Part shown: positions 28,842 to 52,370 of the stretch, piece after piece | Layout: every line of letters begins with the position of its first letter | Numbering within the stretch: position 1 is the first letter of the stretch | The notes under the pieces: model-generated | The model's input: only the letters and a program-made list of their open reading frames with translations | Told to the model about the DNA's origin: nothing | The model's database searches: none | Program-made: the position numbers and the translations under genes | DNA from: Methanoregula sp. | GTDB lineage: Archaea; Halobacteriota; Methanomicrobia; Methanomicrobiales; Methanospirillaceae | DNA length: 64,000 bases | NCBI GenBank assembly: GCA_026625165.1 | Contig: CP112999.1 | Span: 682,001 to 746,000 of the forward strand | Direction of reading: 5' to 3'

Positions 28842-29264
28842 TTAATCTTCAACAGAGATCGTAGTAAGTTTCACCGACTCGACACCCTTCTGTGACATCA
28901 GGCGTTCGGCAAACGCTTTGAGCTGGGTCCCGTCACCATGAATAAGGATTACTTCAAGACAACGGGTATCCGTGACATGCGAGTGCAGGGACGCAGAAAT
29001 GATCGCTTTAAACTCGTGCTGAATATCGGTGAGGGTAACAAGCAGTCCCCGCTGATCATGATCATAGACCATGGTGACAACCCCCTGGCGTTCACCGTGG
29101 ACATCGGACATCCATTTATAATAGGTAATATAGGTGCGGATGGCGTCCCGGATGCCTTCTGACCGGGATGAATAGCCGCGAGCGTTGATAATTTCGTCAA
29201 ACCGGTCGAGAAGGTTTTTTGGGAGAGAGATCCCAATACGGGAAAGTTCAGAGTCAATAATCAT
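28842..29264 (-). CDS. nikR: nickel-responsive regulator NikR, copy 1
   Basis: A 140-residue full-length NikR. The N-terminal ribbon-helix-helix is SRIGISLPKNLLDRFDEII followed by GYSSRSEGIRDAIR. The C-terminal ACT-like domain holds the four nickel ligands H83, H94, H96 and C102 (QHEF; LHSHVTDTRC). It should tetramerise and repress when nickel is bound. It is downstream of the cobN/ABC genes on the same strand with a 126-base gap that includes its own 5' region. It is about 65% identical by eye to the copy at 45829-46251. Confidence 0.93.
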   Translation of the reverse strand: MIIDSELSRIGISLPKNLLDRFDEIINARGYSSRSEGIRDAIRTYITYYKWMSDVHGERQGVVTMVYDHDQRGLLVTLTDIQHEFKAIISASLHSHVTDTRCLEVILIHGDGTQLKAFAERLMSQKGVESVKLTTISVED

Positions 29265-38322: not shown

Positions 38323-38337
38323 AATTCACGAGTGCCC

Positions 38338-39510
38338 ATGTCCCGCTCTCCATTGAAGGATACAGATGATGGCGCAACCGTGCATACCCTGTACAAAGAA
38401 GGCAGTGCACGGCGCATCGCGCTCGTTGCCGGACTTACGCTCCTCGTGATTATTGCGGCAATCCTGTCTGCAGGGATCGGCACGGTCACGATCTCACCGG
38501 AAGATACAATCCTCGCTGTCGGGCATGCATCTGCCGGCTCAGTCCGGGCATTTCTTCATAATTATATGCCGGCCATTGCCGGATGGTATGATGCCATTCC
38601 CATCACCATTCCTGCACCGGGAAACCCGCAGGCTGAAATGATTGTGGTCGGGTTCCGGCTGCCCCGGATTTTCCTTGCCATCCTGACCGGGATGAGCCTT
38701 GCCATGGCAGGTGCCGTTATGCAGGGTCTGCTGCGCAACCCGCTCGTGAGCCCGTTCACGCTCGGCCTGTCTTCGGCAGCATCCTTTGGGGCGGCACTTG
38801 CCATCGTGATCGGGCCGGGAATCCTCGGCGCGTTGTTATTCATAAGCTATGATCTGTGGATCGTCGCGATGGCGTTTTTGTCCGGCTGGCTCTCCATGCT
38901 TCTCATCTACAGCATTTCACGGTCCCGCGGCACGACCCAGTCAACCCTGATCCTTGCCGGTGTCGTGATCGGGTACATCTTCACGGCCGGTGTGATGTCG
39001 CTCAAGTACATCACCAACAACGAGAAACTCCGGGAACTGATGGTCTGGCTGATGGGCGGGATGTGGGGGGCCAGCTGGAACGCCGTTATCCTTCTCCTGC
39101 CGCTCTGCATCGGATCGTTTATCCTCCTGGAAAGGAAGGCATGGGACTTAAATGCCCTTTCCGCGGGAGATGACGTGGCAAAAAACCTTGGCATCGACGT
39201 CGAACGCCTCCGGCTTTCCGGTCTCATGATCTCAACGTTTGCCGCATCCTGCTGTCTTGCGTTTACCGGGGTTATCGGGTTCATCGGCCTGATGGGGCCG
39301 CACATCTGCCGCATGATCATCGGCAACGACCACCGCTACCTGATCCCCTGTTCTGCCCTGATGGGCGCGGCAATCCTTCTCATCTCGGATACTGCGGCAC
39401 GGACGGTCATGAGCCCGGTGGAGATCCCCGTCGGGATCATCATGTACGCCATCGGGGGAATCTTCTTCCTCTTCCTAATCATGAGAGGCCGGGGACGGGG
39501 GCTCTATTAG
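38338..39510 (+). CDS. FecCD-family ABC permease
   Basis: A 390-residue permease with about ten membrane helices, of the BtuC/FecCD/FhuB family for corrinoid or iron-chelate import. LPRIFLAILTGMSLAMAGAVMQGLLRNPL and GVIGFIGLMGPHICRM are family signatures. The ATG at 38338 and a GTG at 38332 are both possible. It is followed after 12 bases by its ATPase, but no binding protein gene is adjacent, so it may share the lipoprotein at 29391 or the protein at 44651. Confidence 0.92.
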   Translation: MSRSPLKDTDDGATVHTLYKEGSARRIALVAGLTLLVIIAAILSAGIGTVTISPEDTILAVGHASAGSVRAFLHNYMPAIAGWYDAIPITIPAPGNPQAEMIVVGFRLPRIFLAILTGMSLAMAGAVMQGLLRNPLVSPFTLGLSSAASFGAALAIVIGPGILGALLFISYDLWIVAMAFLSGWLSMLLIYSISRSRGTTQSTLILAGVVIGYIFTAGVMSLKYITNNEKLRELMVWLMGGMWGASWNAVILLLPLCIGSFILLERKAWDLNALSAGDDVAKNLGIDVERLRLSGLMISTFAASCCLAFTGVIGFIGLMGPHICRMIIGNDHRYLIPCSALMGAAILLISDTAARTVMSPVEIPVGIIMYAIGGIFFLFLIMRGRGRGLY

Positions 39511-39522
39511 CGGGGCAACATA

Positions 39523-40299
39523 ATGGAGATCGTTATTGATAACCTTTCCAAGGATTACGGGGAAAGAAGGGTACTTGATGCGATCTCGTTCTCTGTCGGA
39601 AACGGGGAGATCGTCGCACTTGTCGGGCCCAACGGTTCGGGCAAATCGACCCTTATAAAAACAGTTGCAGGTGTCCACCGGCCGTCCGGGGGAAGCATCA
39701 GTATCGATCAGGAAAATATGCAAGACATTGACCCGGTCGATCTTGCGAAGATGATCGGGTACGTGCCCCAGCACTTCACATACACCCTCTACTCTACGGT
39801 TTTTGAGACCGTCCTTCTGGGGAGACGGCAGCATATCAGATGGTCGGTGTCTGATGAGGAACTCTCGCGGGTCCAGCAGGCACTTGATGCGCTGGAAATG
39901 GGACAGATGGCGGGAAAATATATGGACCAGCTCTCCGGTGGCGAACGGCAGAAAGTCTTCATCGCACGAGCCCTCGCCCAGGACCCGCAGCTGTTCCTGT
40001 TTGACGAGCCGACAAGCGCACTGGATGTCAGGTACCAGATCGAGGTCATGGAAACCATGCGGGCGATCACATGGGAACACGGGGTTGCGATGATCATCGC
40101 CGTCCATGATCTAAACCTTGCGTACCGGTATGCTGACACCGTTCTCCTGCTGAATAACGGGAAGAAGGTCGGGTACGGGAAACCTGCCGATATCCTGACG
40201 CCCGGGTGCATCAGCAGGGTGTACGGTGTCGATTCATTTGTCGTAGAGAATGAATACGGGAAATTTATCGTGCCGTTCCGGGCAAAGACCTCGGATTGA
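39523..40299 (+). CDS. FecE/BtuD-type ABC ATPase
   Basis: A 258-residue ATPase: Walker A GPNGSGKSTLIKT, signature LSGGERQKVFIARALAQ, Walker B LFLFDEPTSALD, H-loop AVHDLN. It matches the importers that pair with FecCD permeases and follows one. Substrate is unknown; corrinoid or metal chelate is likely from context. Confidence 0.92.
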   Translation: MEIVIDNLSKDYGERRVLDAISFSVGNGEIVALVGPNGSGKSTLIKTVAGVHRPSGGSISIDQENMQDIDPVDLAKMIGYVPQHFTYTLYSTVFETVLLGRRQHIRWSVSDEELSRVQQALDALEMGQMAGKYMDQLSGGERQKVFIARALAQDPQLFLFDEPTSALDVRYQIEVMETMRAITWEHGVAMIIAVHDLNLAYRYADTVLLLNNGKKVGYGKPADILTPGCISRVYGVDSFVVENEYGKFIVPFRAKTSD

Positions 40300-40639
40300 A
40301 TGGTCCAGGATTATCAGAACCGAATGAAAGGATCGCCGCTGGTTGTCTTCATGCAACACATCCCGCCGGTAATCGCACGGGGAATGCGAATCTCTGCACA
40401 ATGTTATGATTTTTTTTTAATTTTTTCTTAAAAAATTAAGAAATTTTAAATATCAATAGCACTCTAAACTCTTAGAACTAAAAACAATTTGTCTTAAAAC
40501 AAATTAACTTGTTTGGTGTTATCATGCATATCATGGAAGGATTCTTTCCCTGCAACCGGATCGCCTGCCGCCGGGTAATTCTCCGGGCAGTTACTAGGAA
40601 AAGCGGCCGGATACAGAAGGTGATGGGAGGTAAGCGGAG
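40300..40639. promoter_or_regulatory. 340-base non-coding region before the truncated NikR operon
   Basis: It holds two strong AT-rich inverted repeats: TTTCTTAA/TTAAGAAA around AAAA (40424-40443) and AATTTGT/ACAAATT around six bases (40486-40505), with a TATA-like TTTTAAATAT between them (from 40444). A 40-codon frame (40524-40646) overlaps the next start but shows no similarity I recognise. The size suggests a long regulated leader. Confidence 0.45.
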
Positions 40640-40897
40640 ATGCTAGAGGTAACCGGGGAGAAGCAGGGCCTGATCACAATGGTCTATGATTACGGTAACG
40701 GGGGACATCGCCCTGCATTCATCAACATCCAGCATGAGTTCAAGGGGATCATCCGGGCCTCGTTCCAGTCGGAGATGACCGACAACCGCTGTCTTGACGT
40801 AATTCTTCTTCGCGGTTACCAAACCCAGTTCAAATCGCTTGAGGATCGGTTACTGTCTGAAAAGGGTGTGGAGTCTGTTGAACTTAAGACGTTATAA
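40640..40897 (+). CDS. NikR-like nickel-binding domain lacking the DNA-binding domain
   Basis: An 85-residue protein matching residues 51-137 of the two full NikR copies (GEKQGLITMVYDYG; INIQHEFKGIIRAS; RCLDVILLRG; SEKGVESVELKTL). The ribbon-helix-helix is absent and the frame is closed by a stop three codons upstream, so it is not simply mis-started. Of the four nickel ligands, His (H32) and Cys (C51) remain but the His-x-His pair is replaced by Q43 and E45. GGGAGGT lies before the start. It could form mixed tetramers with NikR, or sense something else. It begins the operon with two pilins. Confidence 0.8.
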   Translation: MLEVTGEKQGLITMVYDYGNGGHRPAFINIQHEFKGIIRASFQSEMTDNRCLDVILLRGYQTQFKSLEDRLLSEKGVESVELKTL

Positions 40898-40940: not shown

Positions 40941-41549
40941 ATGAATAGTCTTGATAAAACTCTCAATGAAAGTGCAGTCTCGCCCGTTGTCGGCGTGATG
41001 CTGATGCTTGTCGTTGTCATCATCATCGCAGCAGTTGTGAGTGCGTTTGCCGGTGGGCTGGGTTCAGGACAGAAAGTGACGCCCAGTGCATCCATCGGTG
41101 TCAGGATCGACACAGCGATAGATGACACCATGGGGGGAACTACGACAAAAATGATGTTTGAACATTTAAGCGGCGACCCGGTTCGTTCACAGGATCTAAA
41201 AATCATCACCTATTACACGGCACCCAACGGGACGGTGATCAAACACATCCAGGATGCATCAAGTCCAGCTACCCAGTTATACAGCTCTCTACGGTTCACG
41301 CGGGTGCCGTTCCTGAACGATCCCAAGATCGGCCGCTCCGGCTACAATACAAGTGTGGATTTTGGAAATTTCACCTGGTCGACAGGTGACATCCTGAGTA
41401 CCGGCAGTCCTGCAGGAACGAGCGCACTTCTCGGTTTCAATGTCAGCGACACAAGTTATGGGTTCCGGGCTGGGGTTCCGGTGGACGTAAAGATCCTCTA
41501 TACCCCAAGCAACAAGTACATCTTTGACAAGGAGGTGTTTGTCCGATGA
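40941..41549 (+). CDS. archaeal type IV pilin
   Basis: A 202-residue pilin. The N-terminus NSLDKTLNESAVSPVVGVML continues into a hydrophobic helix ending VVSAFAGG, the DUF1628 pilin/archaellin N-domain processed by an FlaK/PibD-like peptidase just before the hydrophobic stretch. The rest is a beta-rich outer domain with several N-glycosylation sequons. I chose ATG 40941; the frame extends back into the NikR-like gene. It overlaps the next pilin by ATGA. Confidence 0.88.
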   Translation: MNSLDKTLNESAVSPVVGVMLMLVVVIIIAAVVSAFAGGLGSGQKVTPSASIGVRIDTAIDDTMGGTTTKMMFEHLSGDPVRSQDLKIITYYTAPNGTVIKHIQDASSPATQLYSSLRFTRVPFLNDPKIGRSGYNTSVDFGNFTWSTGDILSTGSPAGTSALLGFNVSDTSYGFRAGVPVDVKILYTPSNKYIFDKEVFVR

Positions 41550-42145
41550 AGCGCCTGGCGGAAAATGCGGTCTCCCCTGTTGTCGGTGTCATGCTGATGC
41601 TCGTCATTGTCATCATCATCGCAGCGGTTGTAAGCTCCTTTGCGGGCGGACTAGGCACAAACATCAAAAAAGCTCCGCAGGTTTCAATGGAGGTCACACC
41701 GGTAATTCAGGGCATACAGGATCAAAATACCGGCAACTATGTACCAGATTACCCGACGGGATTTACCGCTGACAACGGCCTGCTCTTTGAGCATTCCGGC
41801 GGCGATCCTTTCGATCTAAAAGAGATCGAGGTCCAGATCCGGTATACGGATTCAAAGATTAAAATCGGGACAAACGACATCCTGCCATCGCAGAGCTGCA
41901 ACAGCACGGCAGTGAAGGGATACCTAACGAAGATCGGAGCGGCTGACAGTTTCATCAGTGCGGGTGACAAGTTCATGCTCTATGCAGATAACTGCCGTAT
42001 CGACAAGTTCGGCAGCCAGATCTCCTGGCAGCCGGAAGGTGCAGCACGGTCGTTTTCAATACCTAAAAATGCCCGGGGCGAGTATATGTTTGTCGATAAA
42101 AACAGCGGCAAGGCCATCCAGCAGGGGACATTCATATTTCTCTGA
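41546..42145 (+). CDS. archaeal type IV pilin
   Basis: A 199-residue pilin with N-terminus MKRLAENAVSPVVGVMLML and the same helix as its neighbour, followed by a different outer domain (LFEHSGGDPFDLKEIEVQIR). The shared EHLSGDPV/EHSGGDPF motif in both pilins suggests a common fold. ATGA overlap at 41546-41549. The FecCD permease gene follows after 71 bases on the same strand. Confidence 0.88.
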   Translation: MKRLAENAVSPVVGVMLMLVIVIIIAAVVSSFAGGLGTNIKKAPQVSMEVTPVIQGIQDQNTGNYVPDYPTGFTADNGLLFEHSGGDPFDLKEIEVQIRYTDSKIKIGTNDILPSQSCNSTAVKGYLTKIGAADSFISAGDKFMLYADNCRIDKFGSQISWQPEGAARSFSIPKNARGEYMFVDKNSGKAIQQGTFIFL

Positions 42146-42216: not shown

Positions 42217-43173
42217 ATGATAATGGTTACTGACCGCCGGCTCTGGCTCCTCCTTCTCATTGTTGTTGCAGGGATGAGCATCATCGTCTGCACCCTTACC
42301 GGTCCAACCGGCTTTGGCATACCGTCTACCGGCCCCGGTGCTGCCGACATCGTCGGCGGCATCCGGCTCCCCCGGGTTCTCGCCGCATTTTTCACGGGTG
42401 CCAGCCTCGCCGTTGCCGGTGCCGCGATGCAGGCGCTCTTTAAGAATCCGATGGCTGATCCCTACATCCTCGGCACCTCATCCGGCGGGGCGCTCGGTGC
42501 CTCCCTTGCCATCGTCTTTTTCGGCGGCTTTTTCGTCCCGATCTTCGCATGGGCCGGCGCAGTTGCGGCGATCCTGATCGTCTGGTCGATTGCCGGCCGT
42601 AAAGGCGTAATCTCCGTTGAGACCCTGCTTTTAACCGGCATTGCTGTTTCGTTCTTCTTCTCGGCCATCGTCTCGTTCCTGATCGCCGTCTCGGGCCAGA
42701 ACGTCCACCAGATCATTTTCTGGCTCATGGGCGGGTTCTGGAACGCATCGCCATCCGACGCGATCCTCTCCGCCTGCATCCTCGCACCGGCCGGAGTGCT
42801 CCTCTTTTTTATGGGCCGGGACCTCAACGCCCTTTCGCTTGGCGAGGAGACCGCCGCCCACCTCGGTATCGATGCGGCACGGGCCCGCTGGTCGGTGCTT
42901 GGTGGCAGCACCCTGCTCGTTGCCGGTGCCGTCTCGATCGCCGGCTCGATCGGGTTTGTCGGCCTTGTCACCCCCCATATCGTCCGGATGCTTCTCGGCC
43001 CGGACAACCGCGTAGTCATCCCCGCCTGCGTCCTTGCCGGGGGGATACTCCTCGTCATCTCGGACACCCTCGCCCGCACGTTCTTCTCCGACCTGCCGGT
43101 GGGGATCATCACGGCCTTCATCGGGGCGCCGTTCTTCATCTGGCTGATCTACCAGCGGGGAGCGGTTACATGA
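42217..43173 (+). CDS. FecCD-family ABC permease (second)
   Basis: A 318-residue permease with eight to ten helices. IRLPRVLAAFFTGASLAVAG, ALFKNPMADPYILG and GSIGFVGLVTPHIVRMLLG are FecCD/BtuC signatures. It overlaps the ATPase gene (ATGA at 43170). With the ATPase and the binding protein at 44651 it makes a complete importer, probably for corrinoid or a metal chelate. Confidence 0.93.
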   Translation: MIMVTDRRLWLLLLIVVAGMSIIVCTLTGPTGFGIPSTGPGAADIVGGIRLPRVLAAFFTGASLAVAGAAMQALFKNPMADPYILGTSSGGALGASLAIVFFGGFFVPIFAWAGAVAAILIVWSIAGRKGVISVETLLLTGIAVSFFFSAIVSFLIAVSGQNVHQIIFWLMGGFWNASPSDAILSACILAPAGVLLFFMGRDLNALSLGEETAAHLGIDAARARWSVLGGSTLLVAGAVSIAGSIGFVGLVTPHIVRMLLGPDNRVVIPACVLAGGILLVISDTLARTFFSDLPVGIITAFIGAPFFIWLIYQRGAVT

Positions 43174-44462
43174 CCGGCCGGCACAGCATCAATGCCGAAA
43201 ACCTCCACGCGGGGTATGGCATGCAGGAGATCATTAAATCGGTCAGCTGTGCGTTTGCACCGGGATCCTTCACCGGCATCATCGGGCCGAACGGCTCGGG
43301 AAAGACCACGCTCCTGCGGGCATTCAGCCGCGTGATACCGTCAAGCGGGATCCTTGAACTGGACGGAAAGGCAGCTTGCGATTATACTCCTGCGGAACTG
43401 GGCATGGCGCTTGGTTTTGTCCCGCAGGACGAAGGGCGCCCGTTCTCCTACACGGTGATGCAGGTCGTCCTGATGGCCCGGTATGCCCGGACCAGCAGGT
43501 TTGCCGCACTTGCACCGGACGATTATGCCCGGTGCTATCGTGCCCTTGAAGAGACCGGCGTCGCTCACCTTGCCGGGCGATCAATCCGTACCCTGAGCGG
43601 CGGGGAATGGCAGCGGGTGCTCATCGCCCGTGCCCTTGCGCAGGACACAAACGTGCTCCTGCTGGATGAGCCGACGTCGCATCTCGACCTCTCCCACCAG
43701 TCCGATATCCTTTGTCTGATGCGCCGGCTTGCCGGTTCGGGCGCAACCATCATAGGGGTATTCCATGATCTCAACCTTGCCGCGCTCTACTGCGATCGGC
43801 TTATCATGATCCAGCATGGGCAGCTGGTCGCCGACGGCACGCCCGGACAGGTGCTGACACCCCGGAAAATCCGGGAGGTCTACGGGGCCGAGGTGGTCAT
43901 CTCCTGTCACCCGGCCACCGGCCGGACCTTCCTCATGCCCATAAAAACCGTAAACGGGACAAATTCAGTCCTAAAACACCTGAAAGTGCAGGTGATCTCC
44001 GGCGGTGGGAGCGGATCTGACCTCCTGCACTTCCTTGCCGGTAAGGGCCTGTCTCTCTCGGCCGGCATCCTTGCCACTACGGATACCGATTACCTCACGG
44101 CAAAAGCGCTGGAGGTCCCCTGCATCCCGGTCCTGCCGTTCTCCCGGATTCCTGCCCATGCGCTGGAGAATCTAAGAGCCATGCTCTCCCGGGCAGACCG
44201 CATCATTCTTTCCATTCACCCGGTAGGATCCGGCAACCTGCCGGTCCTTGCGGTTCTCCGGGAGGCGGATCCGGCACGGATCATCATCCACCTGCCGGAA
44301 GGCAGGGATTTTCTCTCCTATGATTATGCCAAAGGTGCCGGCGCCGCAGCTCTTGCAGACCTGTGTACTGCCGGTGCACAGTGTACCAGCAGTTATGACG
44401 GGATAATCGCGCTCCTGTACCCGGTGTCCCCAGAAACCCACGACCGTGAGCATGATCCATGA
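43170..44462 (+). CDS. ABC ATPase with extra C-terminal domain
   Basis: A 430-residue protein. Residues 1-255 are a standard BtuD/FecE ATPase (Walker A GPNGSGKTTLL, signature LSGGEWQRVLIARALAQ, Walker B VLLLDEPTSHLD). Residues about 270-425 are an additional domain (VQVISGGGSGSDLLHFLAGKG; ADRIILSIHPVGSGNLPVL) that looks like a Rossmann-type alpha/beta fold with a glycine-rich loop. Similar long forms occur in methanogen corrinoid transporters; the role of the extension is unknown. It overlaps both neighbours by ATGA. Confidence 0.88.
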   Translation: MTGRHSINAENLHAGYGMQEIIKSVSCAFAPGSFTGIIGPNGSGKTTLLRAFSRVIPSSGILELDGKAACDYTPAELGMALGFVPQDEGRPFSYTVMQVVLMARYARTSRFAALAPDDYARCYRALEETGVAHLAGRSIRTLSGGEWQRVLIARALAQDTNVLLLDEPTSHLDLSHQSDILCLMRRLAGSGATIIGVFHDLNLAALYCDRLIMIQHGQLVADGTPGQVLTPRKIREVYGAEVVISCHPATGRTFLMPIKTVNGTNSVLKHLKVQVISGGGSGSDLLHFLAGKGLSLSAGILATTDTDYLTAKALEVPCIPVLPFSRIPAHALENLRAMLSRADRIILSIHPVGSGNLPVLAVLREADPARIIIHLPEGRDFLSYDYAKGAGAAALADLCTAGAQCTSSYDGIIALLYPVSPETHDREHDP

Positions 44463-44650: not shown

Positions 44651-45676
44651 ATGAAACTTAAAAACAGAACCCCAAAAGAGTACGGCATAGTCCTGCTGGT
44701 CACGGCAATAGCGCTGGTCCTTTGTACAATGCCGGTATCAGCGGTCACCGTAACTGACGATGCCGGTATGGCCATCACGTTCAATGCAACACCCTCGCGT
44801 ATCGTCTCGCTGTCCCCCTCCAGTACCGAGATCCTTGCCGCCCTCGGCCTGCTTGACCAGGTGGTTGGCGTAACGGATGCCTGTGACTATCCCCCGGAAG
44901 TAAAGAACAAGACCCGCATAGGGGGCTACTCGGCCATCAGCATTGAGAAGGTAGCTGCGGCCCGGCCGGACCTTGTGTTCGCATCTGACAAAACGCCGTT
45001 GGAGACCGTGGACCGTCTCAAAGAACTCGGCATGAATGTGATGGTGGTCGCCCCGAAAAACATCGACCACGTGATACGGGACATCCGATTAATTGGGGAG
45101 ATAACCGGTACAAAAACCCGGGCAGATGAATTGGCAGCTGATCTTTCGCGCCGCATTGACGCAACACTCCCCTCGCCCCTGCCGGAGCACCGGCCGACTG
45201 TAGCCCACGTGGTCTGGCACAAGCCCCTCTATGTCAGCGGCAACAATACGCTGCAGGACGACGTGATCGTCCATGCCGGCGGCGTAAACGTGTTCTCTGA
45301 CCGGAGCGGCTGGAGCACAATATCGCTTGAGGAGTTCCTGCTGGCCAATCCCGATATCATCGTCGTAAACGGTGGAGGCGGGATGGATTCGTCAAAGAAA
45401 AATGTAATCCTCGAAGAGTTCATGACCAAACCGCAGTACGCATCCCTCTCTGCGGTCAAAAACAACCACGTGTTTGCAGTCGATGCCGACATCATCAGCC
45501 GGCCTGGCCCCCGCATCGCGGATGCAGCAGAAGAGGTTGCATCATTGGTTTTCCGTTCCGGTACGCAGAACGTATCCCCGGCTGCAGCATCCACGCCCCC
45601 TGCATCTGCTCCCCTGCTGCCAGCGCTTGTTTCTGTCATGATCGGGAGTCTGTACGTAATCCGGAAACGGCCGTGA
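44651..45676 (+). CDS. ABC substrate-binding protein, BtuF/FecB-like, membrane-anchored
   Basis: A 341-residue class III binding protein. Residues 10-35 are a signal peptide; the body has VSLSPSSTEILAALGLLDQVVGVT, ARPDLVFASD and RPGPRIADAAEE. The last 45 residues are a Pro/Ala/Ser linker and a C-terminal membrane helix (LLPALVSVMIGSLYVI) that anchors it outside the membrane. It completes the importer with the two preceding ABC genes. Corrinoid is the favoured ligand. Confidence 0.9.
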   Translation: MKLKNRTPKEYGIVLLVTAIALVLCTMPVSAVTVTDDAGMAITFNATPSRIVSLSPSSTEILAALGLLDQVVGVTDACDYPPEVKNKTRIGGYSAISIEKVAAARPDLVFASDKTPLETVDRLKELGMNVMVVAPKNIDHVIRDIRLIGEITGTKTRADELAADLSRRIDATLPSPLPEHRPTVAHVVWHKPLYVSGNNTLQDDVIVHAGGVNVFSDRSGWSTISLEEFLLANPDIIVVNGGGGMDSSKKNVILEEFMTKPQYASLSAVKNNHVFAVDADIISRPGPRIADAAEEVASLVFRSGTQNVSPAAASTPPASAPLLPALVSVMIGSLYVIRKRP

Positions 45677-45828: not shown

Positions 45829-46251
45829 TCAATCTTCAACCTGAATCGTCGTGAGTTTCACCGACTCAACTCCCTTCAGGGACATGAAACGTTCGGCCAG
45901 TGATTTGATCTGCGGGCCTTCCCCGCGGACGAGGACTACCTCAAGACACCGGTCATGGCTCATGTGCGCATGGAGTGCTGTTTTGATAATGGATCTGAAC
46001 TCGTGCTGGATGTTATTGATCGTCTGGAGAAGGCCACGGTGATCATGCTCGTACACCATCGTAATCACGCCATGGCGATCGCCTTTCACTTCAGACATCC
46101 AGGTATAATTCGTGATATATGTGCGGATCGCATCACGAATTCCTTCGGAACGTGACGAGTATCCCCGCTGGTTGATAATCTCATCAAATTTCTCAAGCAG
46201 GTGGGTGGGAATGGATATGCCGGTCCGAGAGAGGTCCTGGTCAATGGTCAT
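45829..46251 (-). CDS. nikR: nickel-responsive regulator NikR, copy 2
   Basis: A 140-residue full NikR: ribbon-helix-helix SRTGISIPTHLLEKFDEII and GYSSRSEGIRDAIRTYI, with ligands H83, H94, H96 and C102 all present (LHAHMSHDRC). It follows the pilus machinery genes on the same strand, with 121 bases between, and faces the binding-protein gene. It has its own AT-rich promoter region. A split of duties with copy 1 (for example transport versus pili) is possible. Confidence 0.93.
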   Translation of the reverse strand: MTIDQDLSRTGISIPTHLLEKFDEIINQRGYSSRSEGIRDAIRTYITNYTWMSEVKGDRHGVITMVYEHDHRGLLQTINNIQHEFRSIIKTALHAHMSHDRCLEVVLVRGEGPQIKSLAERFMSLKGVESVKLTTIQVED

Positions 46252-51500: not shown

Positions 51501-51613
51501 GTAGCACATTTTTATTATCATAACAATTTTTTTTGATACTCAACAGGTTTTTTCAATACAATTTCACATCTCAAAATAAAAAATCACAATCTATTTATAG
51601 CAATGAGTGCTAC
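51501..51613 (+). promoter_or_regulatory. promoter region of the pilin pair at 51675
   Basis: GTAGCAC (51501-51507) and GTGCTAC (51607-51613) form an inverted repeat around a very AT-rich region holding a clear TATA box CTATTTATAG (51591-51600). This implies a start near 51625 and a leader of about 50 bases with AGAGGTAA before the ATG. Confidence 0.5.
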
Positions 51614-51674
51614 GAAATTCTATAATAGTATGAAAATAGGGCCTGTTGCAAGGCACCGTACCAGAGGTAATTAA

Positions 51675-52370
51675 ATGTGCAGTTCAGGAAGATCCAGAGA
51701 AGACGCCGTATCTCCGGTTGTCGGCGTTATGTTGATGCTCGTGGTTACCATCATCATCGCTGCAGTTGTGAGTGCATTTACAGGAGGTCTTGCCAAAGGG
51801 GAGGACAAAGCACCGACAGCTGTTATTGATGTCAAAATTAAGAATACCGGTGAATGGCGGAACAGCAACATCCAGTTCGATGTAAAATCTGTCAGCGATC
51901 CCATCCCGTCGGCTAACGCAAAGATCGTCACCTCCTGGACATCAAGTTCCGGAACAAGGGGCGGAAATACAACAGCAAAAGGTCTGAACACTCCTAACGT
52001 TCAGTACACTTCGGGAAACACAAGATATCAGGCACCGCTTGGATATGGTCCGGGCGTACTGAACTGGAAAACCTCTTCACCATTTCCGGTTGAGCAGATG
52101 TTTGGAAATTATACTATTACAGCGGGTACTTCAATGAGGGCGTCTCCATACGGGTATACTACGTATAATGCGGGATATGGCGTTGTCACTCCGTATGTCT
52201 ATAACGATGATCCCACATACTGGGTCACTGCAACAGACACTGATGCGATGATGGCACTGCTTGGTAAAAACTGGAATGATTTGCGAGCTGGAGACATCGT
52301 AAAAGTGACAATCATCCATACGCCAACCGGTAAGATGATTTATAGCAAAGATGTCGTTGTGGAGGGATAA
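51675..52370 (+). CDS. archaeal type IV pilin
   Basis: A 231-residue pilin: SREDAVSPVVGVMLMLVVTI helix then VVSAFTGGLAKG. The outer domain is rich in Tyr, Thr, Gly and Asn (TYNAGYGVVTPYVYNDDPTY), a composition seen in major surface pilins. It ends IHTPTGKMIYSKDVVVEG, like the pilin at 40941 (LYTPSNKYIFDKEVFVR). It shares one base with the next gene (TAATG). Confidence 0.88.
   Translation: MCSSGRSREDAVSPVVGVMLMLVVTIIIAAVVSAFTGGLAKGEDKAPTAVIDVKIKNTGEWRNSNIQFDVKSVSDPIPSANAKIVTSWTSSSGTRGGNTTAKGLNTPNVQYTSGNTRYQAPLGYGPGVLNWKTSSPFPVEQMFGNYTITAGTSMRASPYGYTTYNAGYGVVTPYVYNDDPTYWVTATDTDAMMALLGKNWNDLRAGDIVKVTIIHTPTGKMIYSKDVVVEG

Follow-up and report, generated by a model that had tools for sequence, protein, structure and literature searches.

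The gene considered here lies in a stretch of 64,000 nucleotides of the Methanoregula sp. contig CP112999.1 (positions 682,001 to 746,000; hereafter the window) and encodes a small protein whose sole Pfam match is the NikR_C domain, Pfam finding no RHH domain in it (Table 1). An earlier note, made from the letters alone, had described an 85-residue product matching only the ACT-like half of NikR. Coordinates, length and frame are right in that description, and its argument that an upstream stop rules out a missed start also stands, as an in-frame TAA (40631-40633) lies three codons before the ATG, which is preceded by a GGAGG. Among NCBIfam models the best match is PRK01002 (65.9 bits against a cut-off of 111), and the protein falls below all the NikR cut-offs of that library. 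Its AlphaFold2 model (pTM 0.79) confidently shows the NikR-core fold, an ACT-like beta-alpha-beta-beta-alpha-beta arrangement. Among known structures NikR chains come closest (Foldseek E 4e-9; Z 13-14); the standalone protein TM1266 (PDB 2NZC) is among the structural matches at Z 13.9, and ACT domains rank after these.

Table 1. Genes and sequence elements at the locus, in window coordinates
Feature	Position	Strand	Basis or remark
NikR1, full NikR	28842..29264	-	ligands HHHC
FecCD1 permease and ABC1 ATPase, upstream	38332..40299	+	
TATA-like TTTTAAATAT	40444..40453	+	putative TATA box, from sequence comparison
Operator-like element TTAAAACAAATTAACTTGT (ACAA-N6-TTGT)	40494..40512	+	only exact match in the genome
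40-codon ORF opening with relic of the cbiM 5' end (ATGCATATCATGGAAGGATTCTTTCCCTG = MHIMEGFFP)	40524..40646	+	comparison with cbiM starts
Ribosome-binding site GGAGG	40626..40630	+	9 nt before the ATG; from sequence
NikR_C-only gene, 85 aa	40640..40897	+	PF08753, 65.4 bits (cut-off 22); AF2 pLDDT 88.9; top fold matches are NikR structures
pil1, archaeal type IV pilin	40941..41549	+	Pilin_N PF07790
pil2, archaeal type IV pilin	41546..42145	+	Pilin_N PF07790
FecCD2, FecCD/BtuC-like permease	42217..43173	+	PF01032; best NCBIfam match BtuC, below cut-off
ABC ATPase	43170..44462	+	nearest to corrinoid ABC transporter ATPase, below NCBIfam cut-off
Periplasmic-binding protein, BtuF-like	44651..45676	+	PF01497; BtuF-like model below cut-off
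NikR2, full NikR with RHH	45829..46251	-	PF08753 and PF01402; ligands HHHC

The claim that the gene leads an operon with pilins and an importer agrees with the layout of the locus, where a same-strand run of pilin-pilin-FecCD-ABC-ORF-PBP follows and pil1 starts 43 nt past the stop codon. Like the corrinoid ABC ATPase PRK09536, the ABC ATPase of this run carries a long extension at its C-terminus. A closely matching order, FecCD1-ABC1-NikR_C-pilin-pilin-PBP1-FecCD2-ABC2, is found in the relative G088, PBP1 being an extra gene there. As pilins and importer also occur in many relatives that lack a NikR_C gene, the latter is an optional first gene. No RNA family of Rfam, cobalamin riboswitches included, was detected between 38000 and 46500. 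The two full NikR proteins that had been noticed are both present in the window, and the genome as a whole has three, all with H,H,H,C as ligands.

When 149 relatives were first searched, the matches listed, the window aside, looked like full-length NikRs by the length of their open frames. The match in Methanoregula sp. PtaU1.Bin051 (G004; contig MVRE01000009.1), of the same genus, turned out to be another gene without RHH; its product is 48% identical to that of the window gene, and it stands directly before a pilin pair. A profile of these two genes recovered six further members, from another genus of the family, and one built on the eight together recovered no ninth member in 232 genomes of the order; the profile searches of these Methanomicrobiales genomes thus give eight RHH-less NikR_C genes in all, distributed over two genera of a single family. 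PF08753 is found in all eight, and the RHH domain is absent from the longest frames of the seven relatives. Every one of the eight leads a pilin pair, with cbiM and a CbiN-like ORF intervening in G089; the earlier note had proposed a search for standalone NikR C-domains beside pilins. Each of these eight genomes also encodes one or more full NikRs. Among 393 sampled genomes of the phylum, a search with the family profile at E 1e-20, which could miss remoter members, found no short-frame standalone members outside the family. Viral contigs yielded no relatives of the gene, a genome-contig scan returned only the Methanoregula MAG member, and in the literature searched no paper dealt with an RHH-less NikR or with the NikR of Methanoregula.

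A maximum-likelihood tree built from 67 NikR cores places the eight members in one group (87/79; 85% of bootstraps) nested among the NikRs of the family, with one change on the tree against 7.7 in shuffles. These results lend moderate support to a single origin of the eight genes, the branches being long and the alignment only 82 columns wide. The closest pair, G468/G454, has a dN/dS of 0.17, the other pairs among G088, G468, G454 and G089 have values of 0.12-0.23 with large dS, and in most of the remaining g5 pairs the ratio stays well below 1, likewise with large dS; between the window gene and that of G004 synonymous sites have reached saturation (pN/pS 0.42), which makes this pair weaker evidence for constraint. 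The earlier note would have given up its proposal had related genomes shown a full nikR at this place and this copy other marks of decay; what we find is that relatives hold the same RHH-less gene and that the family is under constraint. The RHH-less NikR core is a real, conserved gene and not a lone truncation. True decay, in contrast, is exemplified by a nikR in G083:C27, in which frameshifts have accumulated while pieces of the RHH domain are kept. Unusual copies include a decaying, frameshifted nikR with RHH pieces in two frames (L085:9597-9978), a 29-residue relic of the NikR C-terminus in G011, immediately ahead of a pilin pair and encoded on the opposite strand (L056:8449-8535), and full-length NikR paralogues in which the RHH domain is present and all four ligands are replaced (TQQR, YRNQ, NMQR, NQAR; L082:8846-9244, L086:9949-10374, L087:6121-6534, L089:520-924).

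NikR is the textbook nickel sensor, near-universal in methanogens, and functions as a homotetramer with a square-planar nickel site. In the E. coli protein the ligands are His87, His89 and Cys95 together with His76 of the neighboring subunit (PMC7055735). The corresponding positions of the window protein are H32, Q43, E45 and C51, as against H,H,H,C in all 23 aligned NikRs with an intact site; hence half of the site is indeed replaced, as had been claimed, with Q43 and E45 changed and H32 and C51 kept. The nickel ligands are lost or replaced in all eight RHH-less members, that of G004 having H,D,R,S. When the eight cores are compared with the 23 intact-site NikRs, mean similarity falls to 0.12 at the ligand positions and 0.22 in helix 1, whereas the strands are kept (about 0.6-0.7), and the non-ligand residues of the ligand-bearing sheet face, as assigned by strand alternation, reach 0.68 against 0.67 for the fold core. 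The kept sheet face fits continued assembly, whether homomeric or mixed. The family also has conserved residues that are absent from NikR, namely R/H39, present in all eight members, and R/W24-P25, R63 and R78, which do not occur in every member; these suggest a function peculiar to the family and not simple titration. The overall pattern fits a protein that would still assemble like NikR, with an altered surface and without a nickel site.

Examination of the region before the NikR_C genes revealed an element of the form TTAARACAA-N6-TTGT. The derived pattern TTWARACAANNNAANTTGT is matched exactly at 26 sites among 108 genomes of this family, against 6 for the reversed control, the pattern having been drawn partly from some of the counted sites and most of the cbiM genomes not having been used for it. 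These sites precede cbiM (14), NikR_C genes (6), pilin pairs (3) and the BtuC-like permease FecCD2 (1), with 2 elsewhere. The cbiM genes of G050 and G089 score above the cut-off of the cobalt-type model TIGR00123, and in G050 cbiM is followed by a gene matching Pfam CbiN. Because the pattern is common to cobalt-type cbiM and a BtuC-like permease gene, the NikR_C gene and the pilins look co-regulated with cobalt/corrinoid uptake, that is, like part of its regulon. The sharing of this rare operator with cobalt-type cbiM is new here. In the same 108 genomes it was not seen at full nikR promoters, so that direct feedback on NikR is not implied. The earlier view of the neighborhood is thereby extended: the association with pilins and importer holds, and the promoter signal links gene and pilins to cobalt-type cbiM, not to nikR promoters. 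Sites of TTWARACAANNNAANTTGT include those at G000:C1:1077782-1077800 and in loci L098, L111 and L202-L216, and the window and some relatives show a succession TTGT/ACAA/TTGT at 10-bp steps.

A gene for a DUF7839 protein adjoins cbiMN in G050 and lies just before the NikR_C gene in G032, which makes its product a candidate for binding the operator. A second candidate is NikR, whose control of Nik/CbiMNQO in methanogens was predicted earlier, according to the account in PMC10617489, which cites Rodionov 2006. DUF7839 winged-helix paralogues, at L045:1574-2338 and G032:C1:904172-904927 (L080:8172-8927), adjoin cbiMN and NikR_C genes that bear the operator, and the window genome has one copy, at C1:1925733.

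The rest of the leader shows further features. TTTAAATATNAATAGCACTC is common to the TATA-like regions of the window gene and the G004 gene. In the window, downstream of the operator-like element, lies a 29-nt relic of a cbiM start, which opens a 40-codon ORF with no Pfam match; the TAG of this ORF falls within the start region of the NikR_C gene, to which it could be translationally coupled. To the eye the 116 nt ahead of the window gene had seemed a plausible RHH remnant, but this region opens with the cbiM-start relic, and when the 400 nt preceding each of the eight genes were queried for RHH, nothing scored above the reversed-sequence control and the window gene gave no match. Likewise, GAGTGCTACGAAATTY was considered as a common NikR/pilin box; its best matches are at pilin promoters, but total matches equal the control and it is not established. 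Separately, a box GAGTGCTACGAAATTC is found at 51605-51620, upstream of the pilin pair at 51675, and similar boxes are seen at pilin promoters in G004 and G032, with genome-wide counts equal to the control.

We tentatively favor, at rather less than an even chance, the reading that the nickel-blind NikR core works by contacting another protein, the likeliest being full-length NikR in mixed tetramers. The core would be made when the cobalt/corrinoid regulon is on, would assemble via the retained sheet interface and, itself without DNA binding or nickel sensing, would act through protein contact. If the contact is with the full-length NikR of the same cell, the resulting mixed tetramers would have fewer RHH arms and incomplete nickel sites, and NikR repression might be weakened, both partner and direction of effect being proposals. 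In favor of mixed tetramers are the kept fold and sheet face, the degenerate ligands, the full NikR in each genome and the operator shared with cbiM; the family-specific residues and the strongly diverged helix 1 speak against them. It is conceivable, if unlikely, that the protein is an archaeal microProtein: a metal-blind core, switched on together with type IV pilins and the uptake of cobalt/corrinoids, that joins NikR tetramers and so couples nickel regulation to cobalt status, pili being one element of a program for acquiring cobalt/corrinoids.

Nearly as likely as contact with NikR is an independent, homomeric ACT-like sensor, in which the NikR core would have been repurposed for another ligand, for instance a corrinoid, an anion or a metal other than nickel, and would act on some other partner within the cobalt/corrinoid-pilin regulon; TM1266-type proteins may do likewise. 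The earlier note had raised both possibilities, mixed tetramers and another ligand. The family-specific conservation, including basic positions 39, 63, 75 and 78, the cobalt/corrinoid character of the regulon genes (cbiM above its cut-off, CbiN, BtuC/BtuF-like proteins) and the existence of a standalone NikR-like fold in TM1266 all point this way; no ligand site was identified, however, and since the old-site residues vary among members no single new metal site is apparent. An improbable third explanation is that the protein is an accessory of pilus production, acting on the pilins or on TadA/TadC-like machinery rather than on transcription. The constant position ahead of pilin pairs and the short distance to pil1 would suit such a role, but the same pairs lack the gene in many relatives, and the sharing of the operator by cbiM and a permease means that the link may be regulatory only. 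Very improbable is a functionless, decaying nikR remnant: the window gene sits behind the cbiM-start relic and truly decaying copies such as that of G083:C27 occur in the family, but open frame and ribosome-binding site are kept with protein identity to the closest member at 48%, and the single clade of eight, the low dN/dS of the g5 members and the shared promoter element all argue against decay.

Whichever partner the core has, a conserved NikR descendant without DNA binding or nickel site, in a cobalt importer/pilin regulon, provides a concrete example, accessible to testing, of how the job of a metalloregulator domain can change. A first lead that some methanogen pilins may be controlled jointly with cobalt/corrinoid uptake comes from the operator they have in common.

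With NikR itself the family shares a homologous C-terminal domain, the best fold match and a position nested among the NikRs of its own family; it differs in lacking RHH, in its degenerate ligands and in missing the curated cut-offs, and is therefore not to be filed as NikR but as a NikR-derived variant. TM1266 is alike in size, fold (80 residues aligned at 16% identity) and want of a DNA-binding domain, whereas the window family is linked to pilins and cobalt uptake; as such standalone NikR-like folds are known, the 85-residue core is not categorically new. No TM1266-type model was matched in NCBIfam at E up to 10, the presence of one in that library being unconfirmed. SCO4226 of Streptomyces is a standalone ferredoxin-like nickel-binding protein of about 82 residues, a dimer with four nickel ions at its surface (PMC4186839). 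It is similar in size and its fold resembles the NikR core, but it is not NikR-derived by sequence and is distinguished by its surface-bound nickel. The microProteins of plants and animals derive from multidomain transcription factors. The present family resembles them as a lone oligomerization domain originating from a regulator, mixing with the full-length regulator being, in this case, a proposal.
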